A DNA stretch of 64,000 bases from Nocardioides currus (GTDB taxonomy: Bacteria > Actinomycetota > Actinomycetes > Propionibacteriales > Nocardioidaceae), in contig NZ_PYXZ01000007.1 of the NCBI RefSeq assembly GCF_003057875.1, forward strand, positions 7,999 to 71,998, written 5' to 3'. Of this stretch, positions 1 through 13,569 are shown piece after piece. A model generated the notes under the pieces. It made no database searches and was not told the DNA's origin. It worked only from the letters and a program-made list of their open reading frames with translations. Both the position numbers and the translations under genes were made by a program. Position 1 is the stretch's first letter, and each line of letters starts with the position of its first letter.

Positions 1-571
1 CGCGGCCGACCGCATCCCGTTGCTCATGGACGACGAGGTCGACGTCGTCGCGCGCAACATGACCATCAACTGCACCCGCTGGCAGCAGATCGCCTTCTCG
101 GCGGAGTACTTCCGATCCGGGCAGAAGCTGCTCGTCCGCAAGGGCTCCGGCATCACCTCCATCAAGGACATGTCGGGCAAGCGCGCCTGCGCCCCGGTCG
201 GCACCACCAGCATCGAGAACATCCAGCGCCTCGCGCCCGAGGCCATCCCGGTCACCGCGGTCAACGACACCGGCTGCCTGATCAAGTTCCAGAACGGCGA
301 GACCGACGCCGTCACCACGGACGACACCGTGCTCGCCGGTCTGGCCGCCCAGGACCCCTACGCGCAGGTGCTGACGACGGAGCGACTGACCGAGGAGCCC
401 TACGGCATCGGTGTCAACGGCGAACGTGAGGACCTCGTGCGCTTCATCAACGGGGTCTTCGAGCAGATGCGGGCCGACGGGTCGTGGCAGGCGTCGTACG
501 ACAAGTGGTTGCGGCCCTCGCTCCAGACCGCCGGCACGCAGCCGACGCCGATCTATGGACGTCGCCCATGA
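1..571 (+). CDS. glnH: GlnH-like glutamate/aspartate-binding protein, 5' end missing
   Basis: This is the C-terminal 189 residues of a family 3 extracellular solute-binding protein; the reading frame is open from base 2, so the lipoprotein signal and first lobe lie outside the window. Visible are the hinge and second-lobe features of the family: RNMTINCTRWQQ, a SGKRACAPVGTTS loop that would grip the amino-acid carboxylate, and FQNGETDAVTTDD near the ligand. The sequence closely follows remembered mycobacterial GlnH, which senses aspartate or glutamate and signals to PknG; pknG lies two genes downstream, supporting a sensory rather than purely transport role. No permease or ATPase gene is adjacent. 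The stop overlaps the next start (ATGA), which implies translational coupling. Confidence 0.85.
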   Translation, partial: AADRIPLLMDDEVDVVARNMTINCTRWQQIAFSAEYFRSGQKLLVRKGSGITSIKDMSGKRACAPVGTTSIENIQRLAPEAIPVTAVNDTGCLIKFQNGETDAVTTDDTVLAGLAAQDPYAQVLTTERLTEEPYGIGVNGEREDLVRFINGVFEQMRADGSWQASYDKWLRPSLQTAGTQPTPIYGRRP

Positions 572-1680
572 CCGCTGCCCCCACCGCACCCGGCCGGCTC
601 GGGCAGCCGCTCTCGCCGGCCGAGGCGCAGACCTTCCTGCTCGACCTCGACGACTGGATCCGCGCGCGCCGCCTCGAGCTCGACCAGCTCGACGAGGCCG
701 CCCTCGCGGCCGGCCGCGGCGACGAGGTGTCCGCCGACATGATGCTGTCGTTGGCGGTCTGGCAGGCCGTGCAGCAGCGCTACCAGCTGCTCAATGCCAC
801 CTTCGACGGCGGTCGGGTCGGTCCGATCGAGGCCGAGCGGCTCTCGACGCTGGTGTGGGGCCGGCTCGACGGCGACCTCGGCAACGGCCTGGCCGTCTCG
901 CTGCCCGAGGCGTGCCGTCTCTCCGACGCGCTCGCCGGGCAGATCCAGCAGCGGCTCGCGCTGATCCCCGGCGCCGACGCCAGCGCCGCCCGGATCAAGC
1001 AGCTGCGGGCCAACCTCGAGCGCGTGCGCGACCAGGCCGAGCTCGAGCCTGCCGCGACCCGCGACGCCGCCCGCTCCACCCTCGCCGCGCTCTCGCGCCG
1101 GCTCGAGGACGTCACGTCCCGCGCCCAGCGAGGGGCCGACGTCGGCGGGCTGCTGCCGCCGCTGGAGGCCGACGCCTCCGTCTTCGAGCGCGACCTGATC
1201 GTCGGCAACGCGCGCCGCCGCGAGGCCCGCGACGACCTCGACGAGACGCGCCGGCTCCGGGCCGAGCTGGTCGCGCGTGCGACCGCACTGACCGCCCTCG
1301 TCACCACCTGCGTCAGCACCGTCGATCCCTCGCCGCACTACGCCGTACCCGACATCGAGGCCCTCGGCCCGGTGCCCAACACCCCGGACGCGATCGACGA
1401 CCACCGCAGCCGCCTGGAGCGTGTCGCCAAGGCGCTCGCCGTGGCCGAGCACGCGTACGCCGCCGCGCTGGCCGAGCATCGCCAGCTCGTCGACCTCCTC
1501 GACGGCCTGCACGCCAAGGCCGCCGCCCACGGCCTGGCCGACGCCCCCGACCTCGCCGCCAGTGAGCAGCAGGCCCGCGCTGTGCTGTCGCGCCAGCCCA
1601 CGCCCATGACGGTCGCCCGCTCCCTCGTCACGACCTACCAGTCGTGGCTCACCCAGCTGCTCACCCAGGAGTCCGCATGA
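568..1680 (+). CDS. helical, coiled-coil-rich protein of the PknG cassette
   Basis: The 370-residue product starts at the ATG that overlaps the glnH stop. It is rich in Ala, Leu, Glu and Arg with long heptad-like helices (about residues 85-230 and 260-370) and has no convincing membrane segment or signal peptide. I do not recognise a catalytic motif. In mycobacteria the position between glnH and pknG is taken by GlnX, a membrane protein with a sensor region; this product is not visibly a membrane protein, so it is either a shortened equivalent or an unrelated adaptor. Its position inside the operon suggests it helps relay the GlnH signal to the kinase, which is inference only. Confidence 0.8.
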   Translation: MTAAPTAPGRLGQPLSPAEAQTFLLDLDDWIRARRLELDQLDEAALAAGRGDEVSADMMLSLAVWQAVQQRYQLLNATFDGGRVGPIEAERLSTLVWGRLDGDLGNGLAVSLPEACRLSDALAGQIQQRLALIPGADASAARIKQLRANLERVRDQAELEPAATRDAARSTLAALSRRLEDVTSRAQRGADVGGLLPPLEADASVFERDLIVGNARRREARDDLDETRRLRAELVARATALTALVTTCVSTVDPSPHYAVPDIEALGPVPNTPDAIDDHRSRLERVAKALAVAEHAYAAALAEHRQLVDLLDGLHAKAAAHGLADAPDLAASEQQARAVLSRQPTPMTVARSLVTTYQSWLTQLLTQESA

Positions 1681-1744
1681 ACAGCACCCCACGACGTTCT
1701 TCTCCTCCGCTCCGCTCCCCCGAACAACGCCGTGAGGACCCCGC

Positions 1745-4078
1745 ATGAAGTGCCAGCAACCCGGCTGCACGGGCAGCATCCAGGACGGCTACTGCGACGT
1801 CTGCGGCATGGCTCCGGCAACGACCGCCGCAGCGGGCCCCGCTGCGAGCGCGGCCCCGGTCGCCGACGGCGGGTCCTGCGCACAGCCGGGTTGCACGGGC
1901 ACCATCGAGGACGGCTACTGCAACGTCTGCGGCTCCCCCGCCGGGGCGGCCGCGGTCGCGGAGCAGGTCGACCCCGTCTCGACGGGCACGGCCTCGGCCA
2001 AGACCTCGGCGAGCCGCATCCAGTCGGCCGCGCTGGGTTCACGCCGTGCCGGCACCACCGCCACCCGGCGGGCCGGTCACGGCTCCCAGCGGATGCGCGC
2101 CGCCCGCCTGGGCGCCGGCCTCACCGTGGTGCCCGCCGCTCCCACCGTCGACGCGCTCAAGGCCGTCGTCGCCAACCCGTCGGTGCCCGAGGAGAAGCGC
2201 ACCTGCTCCAAGTGCGGCAACGCGATCGGCCGCTCCAGCAACGGCAAGCCCGGACGCTCCGAGGGATTCTGCCCGAAGTGCGGCCAGGAGTTCTCCTTCA
2301 CGCCGAAGCTCAAGCCCGGCGACCTCGTCGGCGGCCAGTACGAGGTCGTCGGCGCCATCGCCCACGGCGGCCTCGGCTGGATCTACCTTGCCAAGGACCG
2401 CAACGTCTCCAACCGCTGGGTCGTGCTCAAGGGCCTGCTCAACTCCGGCGACCCCGACGCCCTCGCCGCCGCGATCGCCGAGCAGCAGTTCCTCGCACAG
2501 GTCGAGCACCCGCTGATCGTCGAGATCTACAACTTCGTCACCCACGAGGGCGCCGGCTACATCGTCATGGAGTGGGTGGGCGGTCGCTCGCTCAAGCAGA
2601 TCCTCAAGCAGCGGATGAAGGACAACAACGGCGCGTACGACGCCCTACCGGTCGACCAGGCCCTCGCCTACATCCTCGAGATCCTGCCCGCCTTCAGCTA
2701 CCTCCACGACCTCGGTCTCGTCTACTGCGACTTCAAGCCCGACAACCTGATCCAGGTCGGCGACGCGGTGAAGCTGATCGACCTCGGCGGCGTGCGCCGC
2801 ATCGACGACGAGGACTCCGCGATCTTCGGCACCGTCGGCTACCAGGCGCCCGAGGTGCCGCAGGTCGGCACCAGCGTCGCCTCCGACATCTACACGATCG
2901 GCCGCACGCTGGTCGTGCTGTGCATGGAGTTCCGCGGCTACCAGGGCACCTACCTCCACACGCTCCCCCCGCCCGACACGACCCCGCTGTTCCAGCAGCA
3001 CGACTCGCTCTACCAGCTGATCGCCAAGTGCTGCGCCACCGACCCGGCCGACCGCTTCACCTCCGCGGAGGAGCTGCGCACCCAGCTGCTGGGCGTGCTG
3101 CGCGAGGTCGTGGCTGCCAGGACGACGGGTACGGCGCTGACCTCCGCCGCCTCGCTGCTCTTCGAGGCCCCCGCGACGTCGGCGTCCGCCCTCGACTGGT
3201 CGCAGCTCCCCGCCCTGCGCACCGACCCCTCCGACCCCCAGTTCTCGTGGCTGGCCAGCGTCGGCGACGCCGAGCCCGCCGAGCTCATCAAGGCGCTCGA
3301 GCAGGCGCCCGAGGAGTCGGCCGAGGTGCTGCTGCGCCGGGCCCACGCGTCCATCGAGCTCGGTGACACCACCGCCGCCCGCGCCTCCACGGCGCAGCTG
3401 CTGACCCAAGACCCGTGGGAGTGGCGGGCGCTGTGGCTCGACGGTCTCGCCGCCATGAAGGACCACGACTGGGAAGCGGCGAAGGCCTCCTTCAGCGCGG
3501 TCTACCAGCAGGTCCCCGGTGAGCTCGGGCCCAAGCTCGCGCTCGCGATCGCCTGCGAGAACGGCGAGCTGCCCGAGGTGGCCGAGGGCCTGTACGCCAC
3601 CTGCGCGGCCACCGACGCCGCGTACGCCGCCCCCGCCGCGTTCGGCATGGCGCGCGTGCGGGCTGCCGCGGGCGACACCGCGGGCGCCGTACGCGCCCTC
3701 GACCTGGTGCCTCCGACGAGTCGCGGCTACCCGGAGAGCCGCCAGCTGCGCGCCGACGTGCTGCTGGCGGGAGCGCCCGACGACCTCGCCGTCCTGGACC
3801 AGGCGCTGTCCAGCATCTCCTCGGTGCGGATGGACCCCGCCGAGCGCCAGCGCTACACCGTGCGGATCCTCAGCCACGCCCTCGACGCCGTGACCAGGGG
3901 CGGTTCGACGCCCGCGGCCGCACGACCCACCGTGGGCGGGGTCTCCGCGCAGGAGGCCCCGCTGCGTGATGCCCTGGAGAACGCCTACCGCGCCCTGGCG
4001 CGCGAGGCCGACACCCTCGACTCCCGCGTCGCCCTGGTCAACCAGGCCAACGCCGTACGCAACAAGACCCTGGTGTGA
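1745..4078 (+). CDS. pknG: serine/threonine protein kinase PknG
   Basis: The 777-residue protein has the PknG layout. Residues 3-63 hold two tandem Cys4 units (CQQPGC..DGYCDVCG and CAQPGC..DGYCNVCG). Residues 154-179 form the rubredoxin-like metal site (CSKCG..CPKCG). A kinase domain spans about 198-450 and a TPR region runs to the C-terminus. Kinase residues visible are the glycine loop around 206-211, Lys229, catalytic loop YCDFKPDN with Asp328, and DLG at 346-348. In actinobacteria PknG phosphorylates FHA proteins of the GarA/OdhI type and so tunes 2-oxoglutarate and glutamate metabolism. The two extra N-terminal Cys4 repeats are unusual compared with the mycobacterial protein as I remember it. 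GAGGACC precedes the ATG. The stop overlaps the next start. Confidence 0.95.
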   Translation: MKCQQPGCTGSIQDGYCDVCGMAPATTAAAGPAASAAPVADGGSCAQPGCTGTIEDGYCNVCGSPAGAAAVAEQVDPVSTGTASAKTSASRIQSAALGSRRAGTTATRRAGHGSQRMRAARLGAGLTVVPAAPTVDALKAVVANPSVPEEKRTCSKCGNAIGRSSNGKPGRSEGFCPKCGQEFSFTPKLKPGDLVGGQYEVVGAIAHGGLGWIYLAKDRNVSNRWVVLKGLLNSGDPDALAAAIAEQQFLAQVEHPLIVEIYNFVTHEGAGYIVMEWVGGRSLKQILKQRMKDNNGAYDALPVDQALAYILEILPAFSYLHDLGLVYCDFKPDNLIQVGDAVKLIDLGGVRRIDDEDSAIFGTVGYQAPEVPQVGTSVASDIYTIGRTLVVLCMEFRGYQGTYLHTLPPPDTTPLFQQHDSLYQLIAKCCATDPADRFTSAEELRTQLLGVLREVVAARTTGTALTSAASLLFEAPATSASALDWSQLPALRTDPSDPQFSWLASVGDAEPAELIKALEQAPEESAEVLLRRAHASIELGDTTAARASTAQLLTQDPWEWRALWLDGLAAMKDHDWEAAKASFSAVYQQVPGELGPKLALAIACENGELPEVAEGLYATCAATDAAYAAPAAFGMARVRAAAGDTAGAVRALDLVPPTSRGYPESRQLRADVLLAGAPDDLAVLDQALSSISSVRMDPAERQRYTVRILSHALDAVTRGGSTPAAARPTVGGVSAQEAPLRDALENAYRALAREADTLDSRVALVNQANAVRNKTLV

Positions 4079-5205
4079 ATGTGACCTCCCTGACCTGTCC
4101 CTCCTGCGGCACCCCGGCCGAGGGCGACTCCAACTTCTGCGAGGAGTGCGGAGCCGCACTGGGCGCGAGCCCGCCCCCGGACGGCGCTCCGCGGGTGCTC
4201 GTCACCGAAGCGGCGGCCGACGAGCCGAGCCCGATCGACGACCTCGGCAGCGGTCCCATCTCGCGGGCGACCAGCCAGACCTACGCGCCCGCGCCGCCCG
4301 CCGCCGGCATCCCCGCCTGTGCGAGCTGCGGGGGCGAGGTCGGTCCCGACGGCTACTGCGAGCAGTGCGGCGTGAAGGCGCTGAGCCCGCGCGACCACTT
4401 CCGCGAGCAGCCGGCACCGTGGGTGGCCGGCGTCTGCGACAAGGGCATCCGCCACAGCCGCAACGAGGACGCGATGGCCCTCTCGGCCAGTCCCGACGGC
4501 TCCGGTGCCGCCCGGCGGGCCGTGCTCGTGGTGCTCGACGGCGTCTCCAACACCGACGACTCGCAGGTGGGTTCGCTCGCCGGTGCCCGGGCGGCGCTCG
4601 GCGCGCTCGTCGTGCCGCTGCCCGTCGGGATGGGCACCCCCGAGGGACGGCTCGCCGCGGCGACGCGGGCGATGTCGGCCGCCGTCGACGCGGCCAACGC
4701 GCAGGTCGAGTCCGCGGCACCCGCCGACGCGGCCAACCCGGCCTCGGCCACCTTCTGCGCTGCGGTGCTGGAGGGCGACACGCTGACCTACGCCAATGTC
4801 GGCGACTCGCGGATCTACTGGCTGCCCGACGGCGGCGAGGGCGTCCAGCTCAGCGTCGACGACTCCGCCGCGCAGGACCAGATCGAGGCCGGGGTCCCGC
4901 GCCTGGAGGCCGAGACGTCGGCCCAGGCGCACGCCATCACCAAGTGGCTGGGGCGCGACAGCCAGGGCCACGAGCCGCGCGTCGGCCAGATGTCCATCAC
5001 GGAGCCCGGCTGGGTGCTGGTGTGCTCCGACGGGCTGTGGAACTACGCCTCCGAACCCGCCGCCCTCGCCCAGCAGGTCGCCGCCGCAGCCACCACCGAC
5101 CCGGCCGCGCTGGCGCTGGCCCTGACCGACTTCGCCAACGCGAGCGGTGGCCAGGACAACATCACCGTCGCGCTCGCCCGGGTCTCTCCCGCGCCGGCAC
5201 CATGA
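4075..5205 (+). CDS. PP2C-family protein phosphatase with zinc ribbons
   Basis: The GTG start overlaps the pknG stop (GTGA). Residues 8-25 (CPSCG..CEECG) and about 82-101 (CASCG..DGYCEQCG) are two zinc ribbons resembling those of PknG. A PP2C domain follows with the expected metal-binding motifs: RHSRNEDA, VVLDGVSN (replacing the usual DGMGG), ANVGDSRIYWL, VLVCSDGLWNY and GGQDNITVALA. It should dephosphorylate Ser/Thr substrates with Mn or Mg, and its coupling to pknG makes it the likely antagonist of that kinase. A GTG at 4081 is a possible alternative start. No membrane segment is present, so it probably acts in the cytosol. Confidence 0.9.
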   Translation: MNVTSLTCPSCGTPAEGDSNFCEECGAALGASPPPDGAPRVLVTEAAADEPSPIDDLGSGPISRATSQTYAPAPPAAGIPACASCGGEVGPDGYCEQCGVKALSPRDHFREQPAPWVAGVCDKGIRHSRNEDAMALSASPDGSGAARRAVLVVLDGVSNTDDSQVGSLAGARAALGALVVPLPVGMGTPEGRLAAATRAMSAAVDAANAQVESAAPADAANPASATFCAAVLEGDTLTYANVGDSRIYWLPDGGEGVQLSVDDSAAQDQIEAGVPRLEAETSAQAHAITKWLGRDSQGHEPRVGQMSITEPGWVLVCSDGLWNYASEPAALAQQVAAAATTDPAALALALTDFANASGGQDNITVALARVSPAPAP

Positions 5206-5259
5206 CCGTCCCCACCCGCCCGAGACCGACCATGTCGCCTACCAGCAAGGAGCAGCCCC

Positions 5260-6546
5260 ATGGCTGAGTTCGCCGCCACCGTCTACCAGAACGAGTTCCT
5301 GCCCGACGGCGGGACCGACGTCAACGCGATCGTCACCGTGACCTGCTCCGGCGCGGGCACGGCCGGCGCCGCCGGGGCGGTCGGGTCGGGCGCCGTCGGC
5401 GAGATCATCATCGTCGACACCTCCGGCTCGATGGGCCACGAGACGATGGAGTCGGCGAAGGAGGGGGCACAGGCCGCCCTCGCCGAGATCCTCGACGGCA
5501 CCCGCTTCGCGATCATCGCCGGCACCGAGACCGCCACCCTCGCCTTCCCTCCCGTCCAGGCCGGTCCCGCGCTGGCCGTGATGGACGCCTCCACGCGCGA
5601 GCAGGCGGCGGGCGCGATCGCCGGGTTCCGGGCCGCCGGCGGCACCGCGATCGGCTCCTGGCTCGACCTCGCCGGGACCGTCTTCGCCTCGGTCCCCGAG
5701 GTCACGCAGCGGCACGCGATCCTGCTCACCGACGGCGAGAACGGCGAGCAGCCGGCCGTCCTCGACGCGGCGATCACGCGGGCGACGGGCTACTTCCAGT
5801 GCGACTGCCGCGGTGCCGGCACCGACTGGAAGGTCGAGGAGCTCCGCCGGGTCGCGACGGCCCTGCTCGGCAGCGTCGACATCATCGGCTCGCCGGACGA
5901 GATGCGCGAGCAGTTCCGCGCGATGATGCAGACCGCGATGGCGCGCGGCGTCGCCGACGCCCAGCTCCGGGTGTGGTCGCCGCAGGGGGCGCAGGTGCTG
6001 TTCGTGCGCCAGGTCGCCCCGACCGTCGAGGACCTCACCGATCGCCGGGTCGAGGTCAACGCGCTGACCGGCGGCTACCCCACCGGTGCGTGGGGCGACG
6101 AGTCGCGCGACTACCACGTCGCCGTACGCCTCCCCGCCAAGGCCGTGGGCCAGGAGCAGCTCGCCGCGCGCGTCCAGGTCGCCCTCGGCGACGACGTCGC
6201 CGCCCAGGGGCTGGTCAAGGCCACCTGGTCCAACGACTCCGAGCTCACCGCCAAGATCGACAAGCAGGTGGCGCACTACACCGGGCAGACCGAGCTGGCG
6301 TCGATGATCCAGGAGGGTCTCGCCGCGAAGGCCGCCGGGGACGACGCCACGGCGACGACGAAGCTCGGACGGGCCGTGCAGCTCGCCGCCGAGACCGGCA
6401 ACGAGGAGGCGACCACCCGGCTGAAGAAGGTCGTCGACGTGGACGACGAGAAGGAAGGCACCGTGCGCCTCAAGAAGGCGGTCGACAAGGCCGACGAGAT
6501 GGCGCTCGACACCGCCTCGACCAAGACCACCCGGATCAAGAAGTAG
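5260..6546 (+). CDS. von Willebrand factor A domain protein of the PknG cassette
   Basis: The 428-residue protein has a VWA domain at about residues 48-230 with an intact MIDAS metal site (DTSGSMG at 53-59, GGTAIGSWL later, and ILLTDGENG). A beta-rich region follows. The last 45 residues repeat a short basic motif (ATTRLKK, GTVRLKK, KTTRIKK). The metal site normally binds a partner acidic residue, so the protein probably assembles with others. The threonines in the tail are plausible kinase targets and FHA ligands, an inference from position. A good ribosome site (AAGGAGC) lies before the ATG. It sits between the phosphatase and the FHA gene on the same strand. Confidence 0.88.
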   Translation: MAEFAATVYQNEFLPDGGTDVNAIVTVTCSGAGTAGAAGAVGSGAVGEIIIVDTSGSMGHETMESAKEGAQAALAEILDGTRFAIIAGTETATLAFPPVQAGPALAVMDASTREQAAGAIAGFRAAGGTAIGSWLDLAGTVFASVPEVTQRHAILLTDGENGEQPAVLDAAITRATGYFQCDCRGAGTDWKVEELRRVATALLGSVDIIGSPDEMREQFRAMMQTAMARGVADAQLRVWSPQGAQVLFVRQVAPTVEDLTDRRVEVNALTGGYPTGAWGDESRDYHVAVRLPAKAVGQEQLAARVQVALGDDVAAQGLVKATWSNDSELTAKIDKQVAHYTGQTELASMIQEGLAAKAAGDDATATTKLGRAVQLAAETGNEEATTRLKKVVDVDDEKEGTVRLKKAVDKADEMALDTASTKTTRIKK

Positions 6547-6555
6547 GAGGCGCAC

Positions 6556-7245
6556 ATGTTGTGTCCTGCCGGCCACGAGTCCACGGCGACCGACTACTGC
6601 GACGTCTGCGGCGTCGCGATGCCCGCCGGGTCCGCGGCAGCACCTGCGGCGGCCCCGACCACGCCCGCCGCCCCGGCGGCCGCCGAGTGCCCCAACTGCT
6701 CGGCGGCCAACTCGCCCGACGCACTGTTCTGCGAGGCCTGCGGCTACGACTTCACGACCGGGTCGATGCCGCGCCGCGCCGAGCCCGTCGGCTCTCCCGC
6801 GGCGCCCGCGGCGGACACCGGCAACATCTCCCCGGCGCTGACGACCGAGTGGGTGGCGGAGGTGTGGATCGACCCCGACTGGTACGCCGACCAGGAGAGC
6901 ACCGACCCGCTCCCCTCGCCCGGCCTGCCGCAGGTCGTGCCACTGCGCAACACCTCGATCCTGATCGGGCGCGCGTCGAGGAGCCGCAACATCACCCCCG
7001 ACATCGACCTCGCCTCCGACACCGGCATCAGTCGTCGGCACGCGCAGCTGACCACCGACGGCAGCCGGTGGTGGGTCGAGGACCTCGGCTCGTCCAACGG
7101 CACGTACGTCGGTGGCGCCCTCGACACCCTGCCGAAGACCCCGGTCGCCGCCGGTCAGAAGCAGGAGGTCCGCACCGGCGACCGGATCTACCTCGGCGCG
7201 TGGACTCGCATCGTCGTGCGCAAGGCCGCCGCGGGCGAGGTCTGA
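6556..7245 (+). CDS. FHA-domain protein with N-terminal zinc ribbons
   Basis: The 229-residue product begins with Cys-rich units (CPAGH..DYCDVCG and CPNC..LFCEACG), continues through an Ala/Pro linker, and ends in an FHA domain at about 125-210. Key phosphothreonine-binding residues are visible: ILIGRASRS, ISRRHAQL and GSSNGTYVGG. FHA domains bind phosphothreonine, so this is the expected reader of PknG phosphorylation. It differs from GarA/OdhI because I see no ETTS-type acceptor motif near the N-terminus. The ATG follows AGGAGG at ideal spacing, and the gap to the vWA gene is 9 bases, so it is the last gene of the cassette. Confidence 0.9.
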   Translation: MLCPAGHESTATDYCDVCGVAMPAGSAAAPAAAPTTPAAPAAAECPNCSAANSPDALFCEACGYDFTTGSMPRRAEPVGSPAAPAADTGNISPALTTEWVAEVWIDPDWYADQESTDPLPSPGLPQVVPLRNTSILIGRASRSRNITPDIDLASDTGISRRHAQLTTDGSRWWVEDLGSSNGTYVGGALDTLPKTPVAAGQKQEVRTGDRIYLGAWTRIVVRKAAAGEV

Positions 7246-10020: not shown

Positions 10021-11495
<1,475 letters not shown>

Positions 11496-12113
11496 CTACG
11501 CGCTCGGCATGCGGCGGGGTCGCAGCCCCACGTCCTTCAGCTCCAGCTCGGCCAGCCGGGCGACCACCACCGGGTCGCGGCGCCGCCAGTCTCCCGCCGG
11601 GTCCTCGCTGACGCGCGCCAGGACCCGCATCGGCTGGTTCGTCAGGGCGCGCAGGGCGAAGAGGTCGAGGTCGTCGGCGGAGTCGATGAACCTCAGCCCG
11701 GCCGTGGCCTCCCGGACGAACCGCACCCGACCGGGCAGGTAGAACGCGGTCACCACCAGGATCGGGATCAGCGCGATCGACAGCCCGAGCACGAGCGCGA
11801 GCCGCTCGACGGCGCGCACCGACGACCGGCCGGCCTCGGCCAGGCCGTCGGAGGCGTCGGCCGCCTTGTCGAACGGCGTCGCGACCTCGTCGCCGATGAG
11901 GGGCACGTCGTCGAGCCGTCCCCCGGCGTCGCGGAGCTGCCCGGCCATGGCGGTCGCCGACTCGTCGGTCTGGCGGCCGGGCGCGGCCAGGGCGGTGGTG
12001 CCGTCGTGGACGGCGAGCCCGATCCACACCCACGCCACCAGCCAGACGACGAAGAGCAGGTCGACGACGACCTGGAACGTACGGCGGCCAGCGGTGTCGG
12101 CGTACAGCTTCAT
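11496..12113 (-). CDS. two-helix membrane protein of unknown function
   Basis: The 205-residue product has a hydrophobic helix at about 13-37 and a second at about 102-128, with a polar, probably extracellular loop between them and a C-terminal cytosolic part of about 75 residues that is rich in Arg and Asp. No catalytic motif is recognised. The C-terminal portion (ALRALTNQPMRVLARV) looks conserved in character but I cannot name it. It starts 10 bases behind the decarboxylase stop, so the two genes probably form one transcript. Confidence 0.75.
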   Translation of the reverse strand: MKLYADTAGRRTFQVVVDLLFVVWLVAWVWIGLAVHDGTTALAAPGRQTDESATAMAGQLRDAGGRLDDVPLIGDEVATPFDKAADASDGLAEAGRSSVRAVERLALVLGLSIALIPILVVTAFYLPGRVRFVREATAGLRFIDSADDLDLFALRALTNQPMRVLARVSEDPAGDWRRRDPVVVARLAELELKDVGLRPRRMPSA

Positions 12114-12123
12114 GCCCCCATGG

Positions 12124-13569
12124 TCACAGAACGCGCTGGAGCTCCGCCCACGTCCGGTCGATGTCGGCGCGCGTGGTGCGCCAGCTGCCGACGGCGACGC
12201 GCATCGCCGCCCGACCCTCGACGACGGTGTGGCTGAGGTAGGCGACGCCGCTCGCGTTGAGCGCGTGCATGGCCGCGAGCGTCGGCTCGTCGCCACCGAC
12301 GTGGCGGAAGACGACCAGGCTCAGCGAGCGCGGTGTCACGAGCTCGAACCGCTCGTCGTCGGCGACGAGCTCCTCGACGTACGCCGCGAGGTCGACGCCG
12401 GACCGGATGTGCGCTCGCAGCCCCTCGAGGCCGTAGGTGCGCAGCACCGCCCACAGCTTCATCGCGCGGAACCGGCGGCCCAGCTGCGGGTGCCAGTCGC
12501 GGTAGTCGACGACGGCGCCCGACTCGGAGGCGGCGTTGCGGAGGTATTCGGGGGTGATCGACAGCGCCTCGGTCAGGTGGGCACGTTGCTGCACCCACAG
12601 CACGCTGCAGTCGAAGGTGGTCAGCATCCACTTGTGCGGGTTGGTGACGATCGAGTGGGCGAGGTGCACCCCGGCCAGGATCCGGTCCCGGTGCTCCGGG
12701 CACACGGCCGCCACCCCCGCCCAGGCCGCGTCGACGTGCAGCCAGGCGCTCGTGCCGTCGATCGCCTCCGCGATGGCCTGGACGTCGTCGATCGCGCCCG
12801 TCGAGGTGGTGCCCACGGCTGCCTGGACGAAGACGGGGGTCCAGCCGTCGTCGATGTCGTCCGCGAGCCGCAGCTCGAGGGCGCGCACGTCCATGGCCTG
12901 CGTGGCCGGGTCGACCTCGATCGCCCGCACGCACTCCGACCCGAGGCCCGCCATCATGGCGGCCTTCACCAGCGACGAGTGGGCCTGCGAGGAGCCGTAG
13001 ACCGCCCACTTCGTCGCCCCGACGCCCGTGTCACGGGCACTACCACCGCTGGCGCGGTGCAGGGCGGCCAGCAGCGCGGTGAAGGTCGCCGTGGAGGCGG
13101 TGTCCTGGATGACCCCACCGCCGAGACCGTGGTCGGTGAGGCGGAACTGCTCCGGCAGGCCGAGCGCCTGCGCGAGCCAGTCGACCACGACCTGCTCGAC
13201 CTCGGTGACGGCCGGGCTGGTGGCCCAGATCATCCCCTGCGCGCCGATCCCGCTGGAGATCAGGTCGCCGAGGATCGCCGCCGGGGACGAGTTGGCCGGG
13301 AAGTAGGCGAAGAACCGCGGGTGCTGCCAGTGCGTCAGGCCCGGCACGACGAGCTCGTCGAGGTCGGCCAGCAGGGCGTCGAACGGCTCCCCCGCCTCCG
13401 GGGGCGCGGTCGGCAGCGAGCGCCGTACGTCGCCGGGCGCGACCTGCGCCAGCACCGGCACGTCGTCCAGGCCGGCCCAGTAGTCGGCGATCCAGTCGAT
13501 GGCGGCGTGGCCCTGGCGCCGGAACTCCTCGGGACTCATGTGTGCCGGGGTGTCGCTGTTGGGTGGCAT
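12124..13569 (-). CDS. PLP-dependent aromatic amino acid decarboxylase family protein
   Basis: The 481-residue protein belongs to the group II pyridoxal-phosphate decarboxylases (DDC/TyrDC/TDC). Residues 81-92 (WQHPRFFAYFPA), HVDAAW with Asp280 for the cofactor ring nitrogen, and NPHKWML with Lys313 as the Schiff-base lysine are all present, and length is typical. It should remove the alpha-carboxyl of an aromatic amino acid such as Phe, Tyr, Trp or Dopa; which one cannot be read from sequence. TACGTT stands six bases before the ATG. The membrane protein gene follows 10 bases downstream. Confidence 0.9.
   Translation of the reverse strand: MPPNSDTPAHMSPEEFRRQGHAAIDWIADYWAGLDDVPVLAQVAPGDVRRSLPTAPPEAGEPFDALLADLDELVVPGLTHWQHPRFFAYFPANSSPAAILGDLISSGIGAQGMIWATSPAVTEVEQVVVDWLAQALGLPEQFRLTDHGLGGGVIQDTASTATFTALLAALHRASGGSARDTGVGATKWAVYGSSQAHSSLVKAAMMAGLGSECVRAIEVDPATQAMDVRALELRLADDIDDGWTPVFVQAAVGTTSTGAIDDVQAIAEAIDGTSAWLHVDAAWAGVAAVCPEHRDRILAGVHLAHSIVTNPHKWMLTTFDCSVLWVQQRAHLTEALSITPEYLRNAASESGAVVDYRDWHPQLGRRFRAMKLWAVLRTYGLEGLRAHIRSGVDLAAYVEELVADDERFELVTPRSLSLVVFRHVGGDEPTLAAMHALNASGVAYLSHTVVEGRAAMRVAVGSWRTTRADIDRTWAELQRVL

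Follow-up and report, generated by a model that had tools for sequence, protein, structure and literature searches.

A PknG operon of Nocardioides currus whose kinase, phosphatase and reader bear zinc ribbons, with an ArnB-like vWA protein as candidate hub

The actinobacterium Nocardioides currus encodes the Ser/Thr kinase PknG in an operon together with a PP2C phosphatase, a von Willebrand factor A (vWA) protein and a forkhead-associated (FHA) reader. The operon reaches into the 64,000-nucleotide stretch analyzed here (referred to as "the window"; contig NZ_PYXZ01000007.1, positions 7,999 to 71,998). PknG, the phosphatase and the FHA protein each carry two N-terminal zinc ribbons that follow the gene cassette, and the vWA protein matches ArnB of Sulfolobus in fold. 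On this basis, we slightly favor the view that the cassette is one amino-acid-responsive phospho-signaling system arranged around the ArnB-like vWA protein as hub, with the ribbons docking the writer, the eraser and the reader. An earlier sequence-only reading had noted the ribbons and proposed that their carriers assemble on a common partner or sense metal or redox together. Its observation is confirmed, proving stronger than first stated, and its interpretation is partly supported; the common partner appears to be the better half of the proposal, with the vWA protein as the best candidate for that role.

Zinc ribbons and their association with the cassette

The core features in the window are as follows. 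Ribbon units were recognized from their sequence, in the phosphatase together with the consensus of 76 relatives, and FHA ribbon 2 was placed by alignment with ArnA.

1745-4078, forward strand: PknG Ser/Thr kinase with two N-terminal ribbons, rubredoxin, kinase and TPR domains
1751-1804, forward strand: PknG ribbon 1, C-x4-C-x8-C-x2-C, DGYCDVC
1877-1930, forward strand: PknG ribbon 2, C-x4-C-x8-C-x2-C, DGYCNVC
2204-2281, forward strand: rubredoxin-like Cys4 of PknG (PF16919), common to mycobacterial PknG
4075-5205, forward strand: PP2C phosphatase with two N-terminal ribbons (PP2C_2, 3.6e-10; Stp1-type PP2C, 3e-26)
4096-4149, forward strand: PP2C ribbon 1, FCEEC type
4318-4368, forward strand: PP2C ribbon 2, DGYCEQC type
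5260-6546, forward strand: vWA protein, ArnB-like (VWA_3_C, 3.6e-20)
6268-6300, forward strand: vWA residues 337-347, VAHYTGQTELA, where the helix bundle begins; the 11-mer with the highest conservation in the family
6499-6543, forward strand: vWA C-terminal tail MALDTASTKTTRIKK, candidate phospho-switch
6556-7245, forward strand: FHA reader with two N-terminal ribbons, ArnA-like (FHA, 1.4e-14)
6562-6609, forward strand: FHA ribbon 1, CxxxH..DYCDVC (Cys3His)
6688-6741, forward strand: FHA ribbon 2, CPNC..ALFCEAC, with Cys spacing and hairpin as in the vWA-binding zinc finger of ArnA

The kinase belongs to the PknG family, matching PknG_TPR (PF16918, 7.5e-55), PknG_rubred (PF16919, 2.3e-25), Pkinase (8.7e-31) and the PDB entry 2pzi (5e-137), and its closest named relatives are from Nocardioides. 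Two Cys4 units had originally been read on each of the three carriers. Two ribbons are indeed present on each, but the first FHA unit is of the Cys3His type (C-x3-H in 72 of the 72 relatives with two FHA units), and the rubredoxin domain adds a third metal site to PknG, its residues C154, C157, C176 and C179 being invariant among 10 PknGs. Conservation within the ribbons extends to residues other than cysteine (PGC.G, DGYCD.CG, ALFCE.CG). Each unit has its own consensus, and the order of the units is specific to each protein and retained over deep divergence.

The ribbons are concentrated in the cassette. Counted genome-wide as DNA pattern matches, DG[FY]C..CG occurs three times, always in the cassette, and 7 of the 12 [FY]CxxCG sites in the 4.53-Mb genome fall within the 5-kb stretch of the cassette. 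The other five lie in a GarA-like FHA protein (two), a NudC-like Nudix protein, a membrane protein and a 40-codon frame that is probably not a gene. Across 82 complete related loci, 520 motif sites were found in 496 kb inside the cassette versus 2 in 1,210 kb outside, an approximately 600-fold difference in density. A spread of such units through many unrelated neighbors, which the sequence-only reading had named as evidence to look for against itself, was thus not seen; the units are almost absent there.

To place the locus among its relatives, we compared PknG-centered loci, 80 from named genomes and others from further genomes sampled by family and phylum; because the named loci were picked by similarity to the window, the frequencies given here are not unbiased. 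The operon was found in Nocardioides, Streptomyces, Cellulomonas, Actinomadura, Nocardia and Acidimicrobiia, and its presence within the genus Nocardioides is patchy. Scattering of the genes in relatives was also looked for, and PknG, PP2C, vWA and FHA instead stand together from Acidimicrobiia to Streptomyces. In the 82 loci with all four genes, kinase, phosphatase and reader all have ribbons as long as their N-terminus is complete. The automatic count gave some exceptions, and those inspected by eye came from wide linkers, unusual Cys spacing (locus L065), a single unit in place of two, or contig ends. One cassette, lacking GlnH, was found on a contig of the cyanobacterium Tolypothrix (L102); its uniform GC content of 37-45% suggests lateral transfer over contamination.

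The sharpest contrast is found within the Mycobacteriales. As had been claimed for mycobacterial relatives, all 13 canonical Mycobacteriales PknGs examined have the rubredoxin unit only, and canonical mycobacterial and nocardial PknGs have no PP2C, vWA or FHA neighbors. Both PknG types occur in Mycobacterium sp. OAS707 and in three species of Nocardia; in these genomes the ribbons occur only on the cassette-linked copy, and none of the seven unlinked copies has them. The ribbons therefore follow the cassette, not the taxon. Additional Actinomadura PknG copies linked to vWA also have ribbons, and one of them (L188) carries a ribbon but no rubredoxin. In a PknG tree without a fixed root, the Mycobacteriales copies that lack ribbons fall into one supported clade beside the cassette copies of Nocardia and Mycobacterium, suggesting that ribbons and cassette were probably lost together in one event.

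The vWA protein and its likeness to ArnB

The vWA protein is built as a vWA domain within a split beta-sandwich, followed by a C-terminal helix bundle (AlphaFold2 model, 43 relatives, pLDDT 91), and its metal ion-dependent adhesion site (MIDAS) residues are invariant. A Foldseek search with this model matched first 4fx5 (1e-55), then ArnB as bound to ArnA in 8s05 (6e-22) and ArnE/vWA2, a paralogue of ArnB, in 5a8j (5e-18). The family is closely tied to PknG: VWA_3_C (PF18571) gave 17 matches in 14 of the 45 genomes searched, all 17 beside a PknG, and 31 genomes had no match.

Two 11-residue stretches of the vWA protein are conserved above all others, namely VAHYTGQTELA and EMALDTASTKT in the tail. 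The first corresponds to the ribbon-docking side of ArnB when the model and the ArnB interface (PMC12852372) are matched by the order of secondary structures. In the tail, S420, T423 and R425 are invariant among 43 aligned relatives and T421 is conserved in 98%, giving the motif S-T-K-T-x-R. A divergent pair of a PknG-like gene and a vWA gene from the Streptomyces family (L028, about 11000-12500) also has STKT in its vWA protein, which carries a C-terminal zinc ribbon of its own.

The protein behind 4fx5, from Catenulispora acidiphila, is a clear full-length orthologue of the window vWA protein and shares the tail as STKTVR; in the literature examined it stands as a structure alone, without assignment of a function. 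A 2026 paper names it as a structural orthologue and states that a role in multi-phosphorylation is mostly lacking in such proteins (PMC12852372). The operon context nonetheless argues that the actinobacterial vWA proteins take part in phospho-signaling.

In Sulfolobus, the ArnA ribbon binds ArnB between the beta-sandwich and the helix bundle (PMC12852372). The kinase ArnC phosphorylates the ArnB C-terminus and exposes sites for the ArnA FHA domain (PMC12852372; PMC6509490), while PP2A, which associates with ArnA/ArnB, takes the complex apart (PMC7472852). The top PDB matches of the cassette FHA protein are ArnA itself (8s05_C, 5a8i), ribbon included, and the interface hairpin of ArnA, DALFC..CG, recurs in FHA ribbon 2. 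Both systems place the gene for a ribbon-FHA reader next to that for a vWA, beta-sandwich and helix-bundle protein with a Thr-rich C-terminus. A kinase (ArnC/ArnD) and a phosphatase (PP2A) act on the Arn pair, which has a nutrient input; the cassette holds PknG, PP2C and an amino-acid sensor. By this precedent the vWA protein can be named as the candidate common partner of a putative complex.

The systems also differ. The cassette operon includes a membrane receptor and a PknG-type kinase, its phosphatase is a PP2C, and its kinase and phosphatase bear ribbons as well. Its vWA tail has S-T-K-T-x-R versus the ETTRR repeats of ArnB. The host is a bacterium with no archaellum to regulate, and the likeness is one of mechanism only.

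Operon extent and input side

The remaining genes of the operon lie in the first part of the window and in the stretch upstream of it (L005).

2-571, forward strand: 3' part of glnH, GlnH-like solute-binding lipoprotein (SBP_bac_3, 4e-17); start upstream of the window
568-1680, forward strand: coiled-coil protein of 370 amino acids between glnH and pknG, kept across cassettes
Upstream stretch L005, 2874-6305: TelA (PF05816, 1.7e-92), a 174-amino-acid unknown protein and a CbbX/EccA-like AAA ATPase
Upstream stretch L005, 6302-7606: GlnX

GlnH, PknG, PP2C, vWA and FHA had been described as contiguous. The genes are found at that place, but the coiled-coil gene had gone unlisted and the operon begins upstream of the window with TelA, the unknown protein, the AAA ATPase and the GlnX-type protein. 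The pknG and PP2C genes overlap by 4 bp and the remaining gaps within the window are 9-64 bp; over the whole operon, nearly all genes overlap or lie at most 64 bp apart, except for the glnX-glnH interval. A sequence of about 65 bp, ACGACGTTCTTCTCCTCCGCT..., which may be an interspersed repeat, occurs twice between glnX and glnH (L005 7600-7740) and once before pknG (window 1677-1744), the latter being its single copy within the window. A single ambiguous base (N) was noted in glnH at L005 position 7998, immediately before the window start. Scanning for promoters and terminators gave no signal over background.

The coiled-coil protein has homologues in 90 of 101 loci and is, together with GlnX, as constant as vWA within the core operon. 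Its model is confidently all-helical (pLDDT 95.7), and it has no Pfam or NCBIfam match and no PDB fold match below E 0.4. TelA is present in 53 of the 101 loci. The TelA-unknown-AAA genes form an accessory block in Nocardioidaceae, Cellulomonadaceae, Kribbella and relatives, which is absent from the cassettes of Streptomyces, Nocardia, Actinomadura and Actinoplanes.

In mycobacteria and corynebacteria, PknG acts in the GlnH-GlnX-PknG pathway, with GarA/OdhI as its substrate. GlnH, GlnX and PknG (rubredoxin, kinase, TPR) of the cassette are homologous to the components of this pathway and linked, with glnH in the window and glnX upstream, and the pairing is retained in most loci. In contrast, the mycobacterial kinase lacks the additional ribbons, and no PP2C, vWA, FHA or coiled-coil gene is linked to it, the coiled-coil protein being absent alongside the canonical form. 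The top PDB match of the window GlnH is Mycobacterium tuberculosis GlnH (6h1u, 5e-47). The cassette proteins retain the ligands of the amino-acid backbone, Arg147, Ser/Thr164, Arg169 and Asp250, but most cassettes have His, Asp or Gln in place of Trp232, and Lys161 is usually replaced by Arg (residue roles in M. tuberculosis GlnH, PMC6069109). These residues point to an amino acid as the probable ligand, though aspartate or glutamate cannot safely be assumed.

The GarA/OdhI homologue of the source genome (G000:C3:50396-50938) itself carries an N-terminal double zinc ribbon. By alignment reach, this ribbon is also found in other Nocardioides, Kribbella, Streptomyces and Actinomadura, but not in Mycobacterium, Nocardia, Cellulomonas or Terrabacter. 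We rejected it as an obligatory consequence of the operon: on the same measure it is kept in operon-less Nocardioides and missing in operon-bearing Cellulomonas, Terrabacter and Nocardia.

Proposed mechanism and alternative explanations

In the mechanism we propose, GlnH would bind an extracellular amino acid and GlnX would relay the signal across the membrane, activating PknG inside the cell, in line with the established mycobacterial and corynebacterial pathway. The N-terminal ribbons of PknG (writer), PP2C (eraser) and the FHA protein (reader) would serve as docking modules that tether each to the vWA protein, on a surface between its beta-sandwich and C-terminal helix bundle, like the ArnA ribbon on ArnB. 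PknG would phosphorylate threonines of the tail (STKT-x-R), and perhaps also of the helix bundle; the FHA domain would then lock onto the phosphothreonine, so that a complex at first held loosely by ribbons becomes tight, and PP2C would undo the tail phosphorylation. The GarA/OdhI route may operate in parallel.

Several observations weigh against this mechanism. Because the ribbon-less PknGs of Mycobacteriales form one clade, the ribbon contrast rests on about one evolutionary event. Three PknGs (L081, L192, L211) have a ribbon but no linked vWA, although vWA is found elsewhere in two of these genomes. Ribbons are small, promiscuous folds, and the similarity of the FHA ribbon to ArnA is short (11 bits). 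The ribbons of PknG and PP2C (C-x4-C; DGYC) are unlike the ArnA type and may bind elsewhere. In Sulfolobus, those ArnB Thr pair mutants that could be tested still bound ArnA, and all retained motility control (PMC6509490).

One alternative is that the ribbons dock on another partner, such as the coiled-coil protein, GlnX, TelA or the membrane. The constancy of the coiled-coil protein and GlnX, equal to that of vWA, speaks for it. However, TelA is missing from the Streptomyces, Nocardia and Actinomadura cassettes, cassette-less Mycobacteriales have GlnX yet lack ribbons, and a direct structural precedent for ribbon docking exists only for vWA. We therefore consider another partner unlikely.

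It is a little less likely again that the ribbons sense redox state or metal jointly, such that oxidation or zinc loss would switch writer, eraser and reader at once. Each unit is a Cys cluster of the zinc type, and the rubredoxin of M. tuberculosis PknG is redox-active and modulates kinase activity, according to work cited in PMC8546545 and PMC6069109. Beyond that published work on the rubredoxin domain, this half of the sequence-only proposal found no direct support. Conservation of residues other than cysteine is what a binding surface would be expected to show, one of the two FHA units is always Cys3His, and the Actinomadura PknG of L188 retains a ribbon without a rubredoxin.

A third possibility, which we regard as improbable, is a TerY-P-type triad of kinase, PP2C and vWA for metal stress or phage defense, with TelA as a stress partner. 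Kinase, PP2C and vWA are likewise encoded in one operon, and the kinase bears a ribbon; in Nocardioides and its relatives a TelA gene comes first in the operon, and the patchy presence within the genus would fit. However, the TerY-P kinase has its ribbon at the C-terminus (PMC11090510), whereas the cassette kinase has N-terminal ribbons and ends in TPR, its vWA protein, by fold of the three-domain ArnB type, may be unlike TerY, and TelA is missing from about half of the loci. The cassette also adds an FHA reader and a GlnH-GlnX receptor. Filing the cassette as TerY-P was rejected on ribbon position, and filing it as a defense system since PADLOC matches reflect generic kinase similarity only. 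Least probable of all is that the ribbons are structural baggage spread by recombination without shared function: although they are common small domains, and GarA/OdhI of the source genome also has two independently of the operon, the protein-specific unit order and consensus and the contrast within four genomes argue otherwise.

Our open-access literature search found no earlier account of a pknG operon extended by PP2C, vWA and FHA genes; subscription papers lay outside it. PknG has been studied intensively and is a drug target, but work on it comes, to our knowledge, almost entirely from mycobacteria and corynebacteria. The present comparison suggests that the PknGs of these groups were reduced from a larger apparatus that includes a phosphatase, a reader and a scaffold of its own. 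Stated in full, and held tentatively as slightly likelier to fail than to stand, the proposal is that the cassette is the bacterial equivalent of the ArnA-ArnB (and Sec23/24-like) scaffold. Its kinase, phosphatase and reader would plug via ribbons into the vWA hub, so that one receptor-driven complex would write, erase and read the same phospho-tail. It further holds that PknG of M. tuberculosis and its relatives would be the remnant left after joint loss of hub, phosphatase, reader and ribbons. If this is true, the search for PknG substrates, the former role of the N-terminus and the opposing phosphatase could be addressed directly in Streptomyces or Nocardioides, and the Catenulispora structure 4fx5 would gain a context. 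The ribbon-vWA phospho-switch, so far characterized in Sulfolobus, would then be common to archaea and bacteria.

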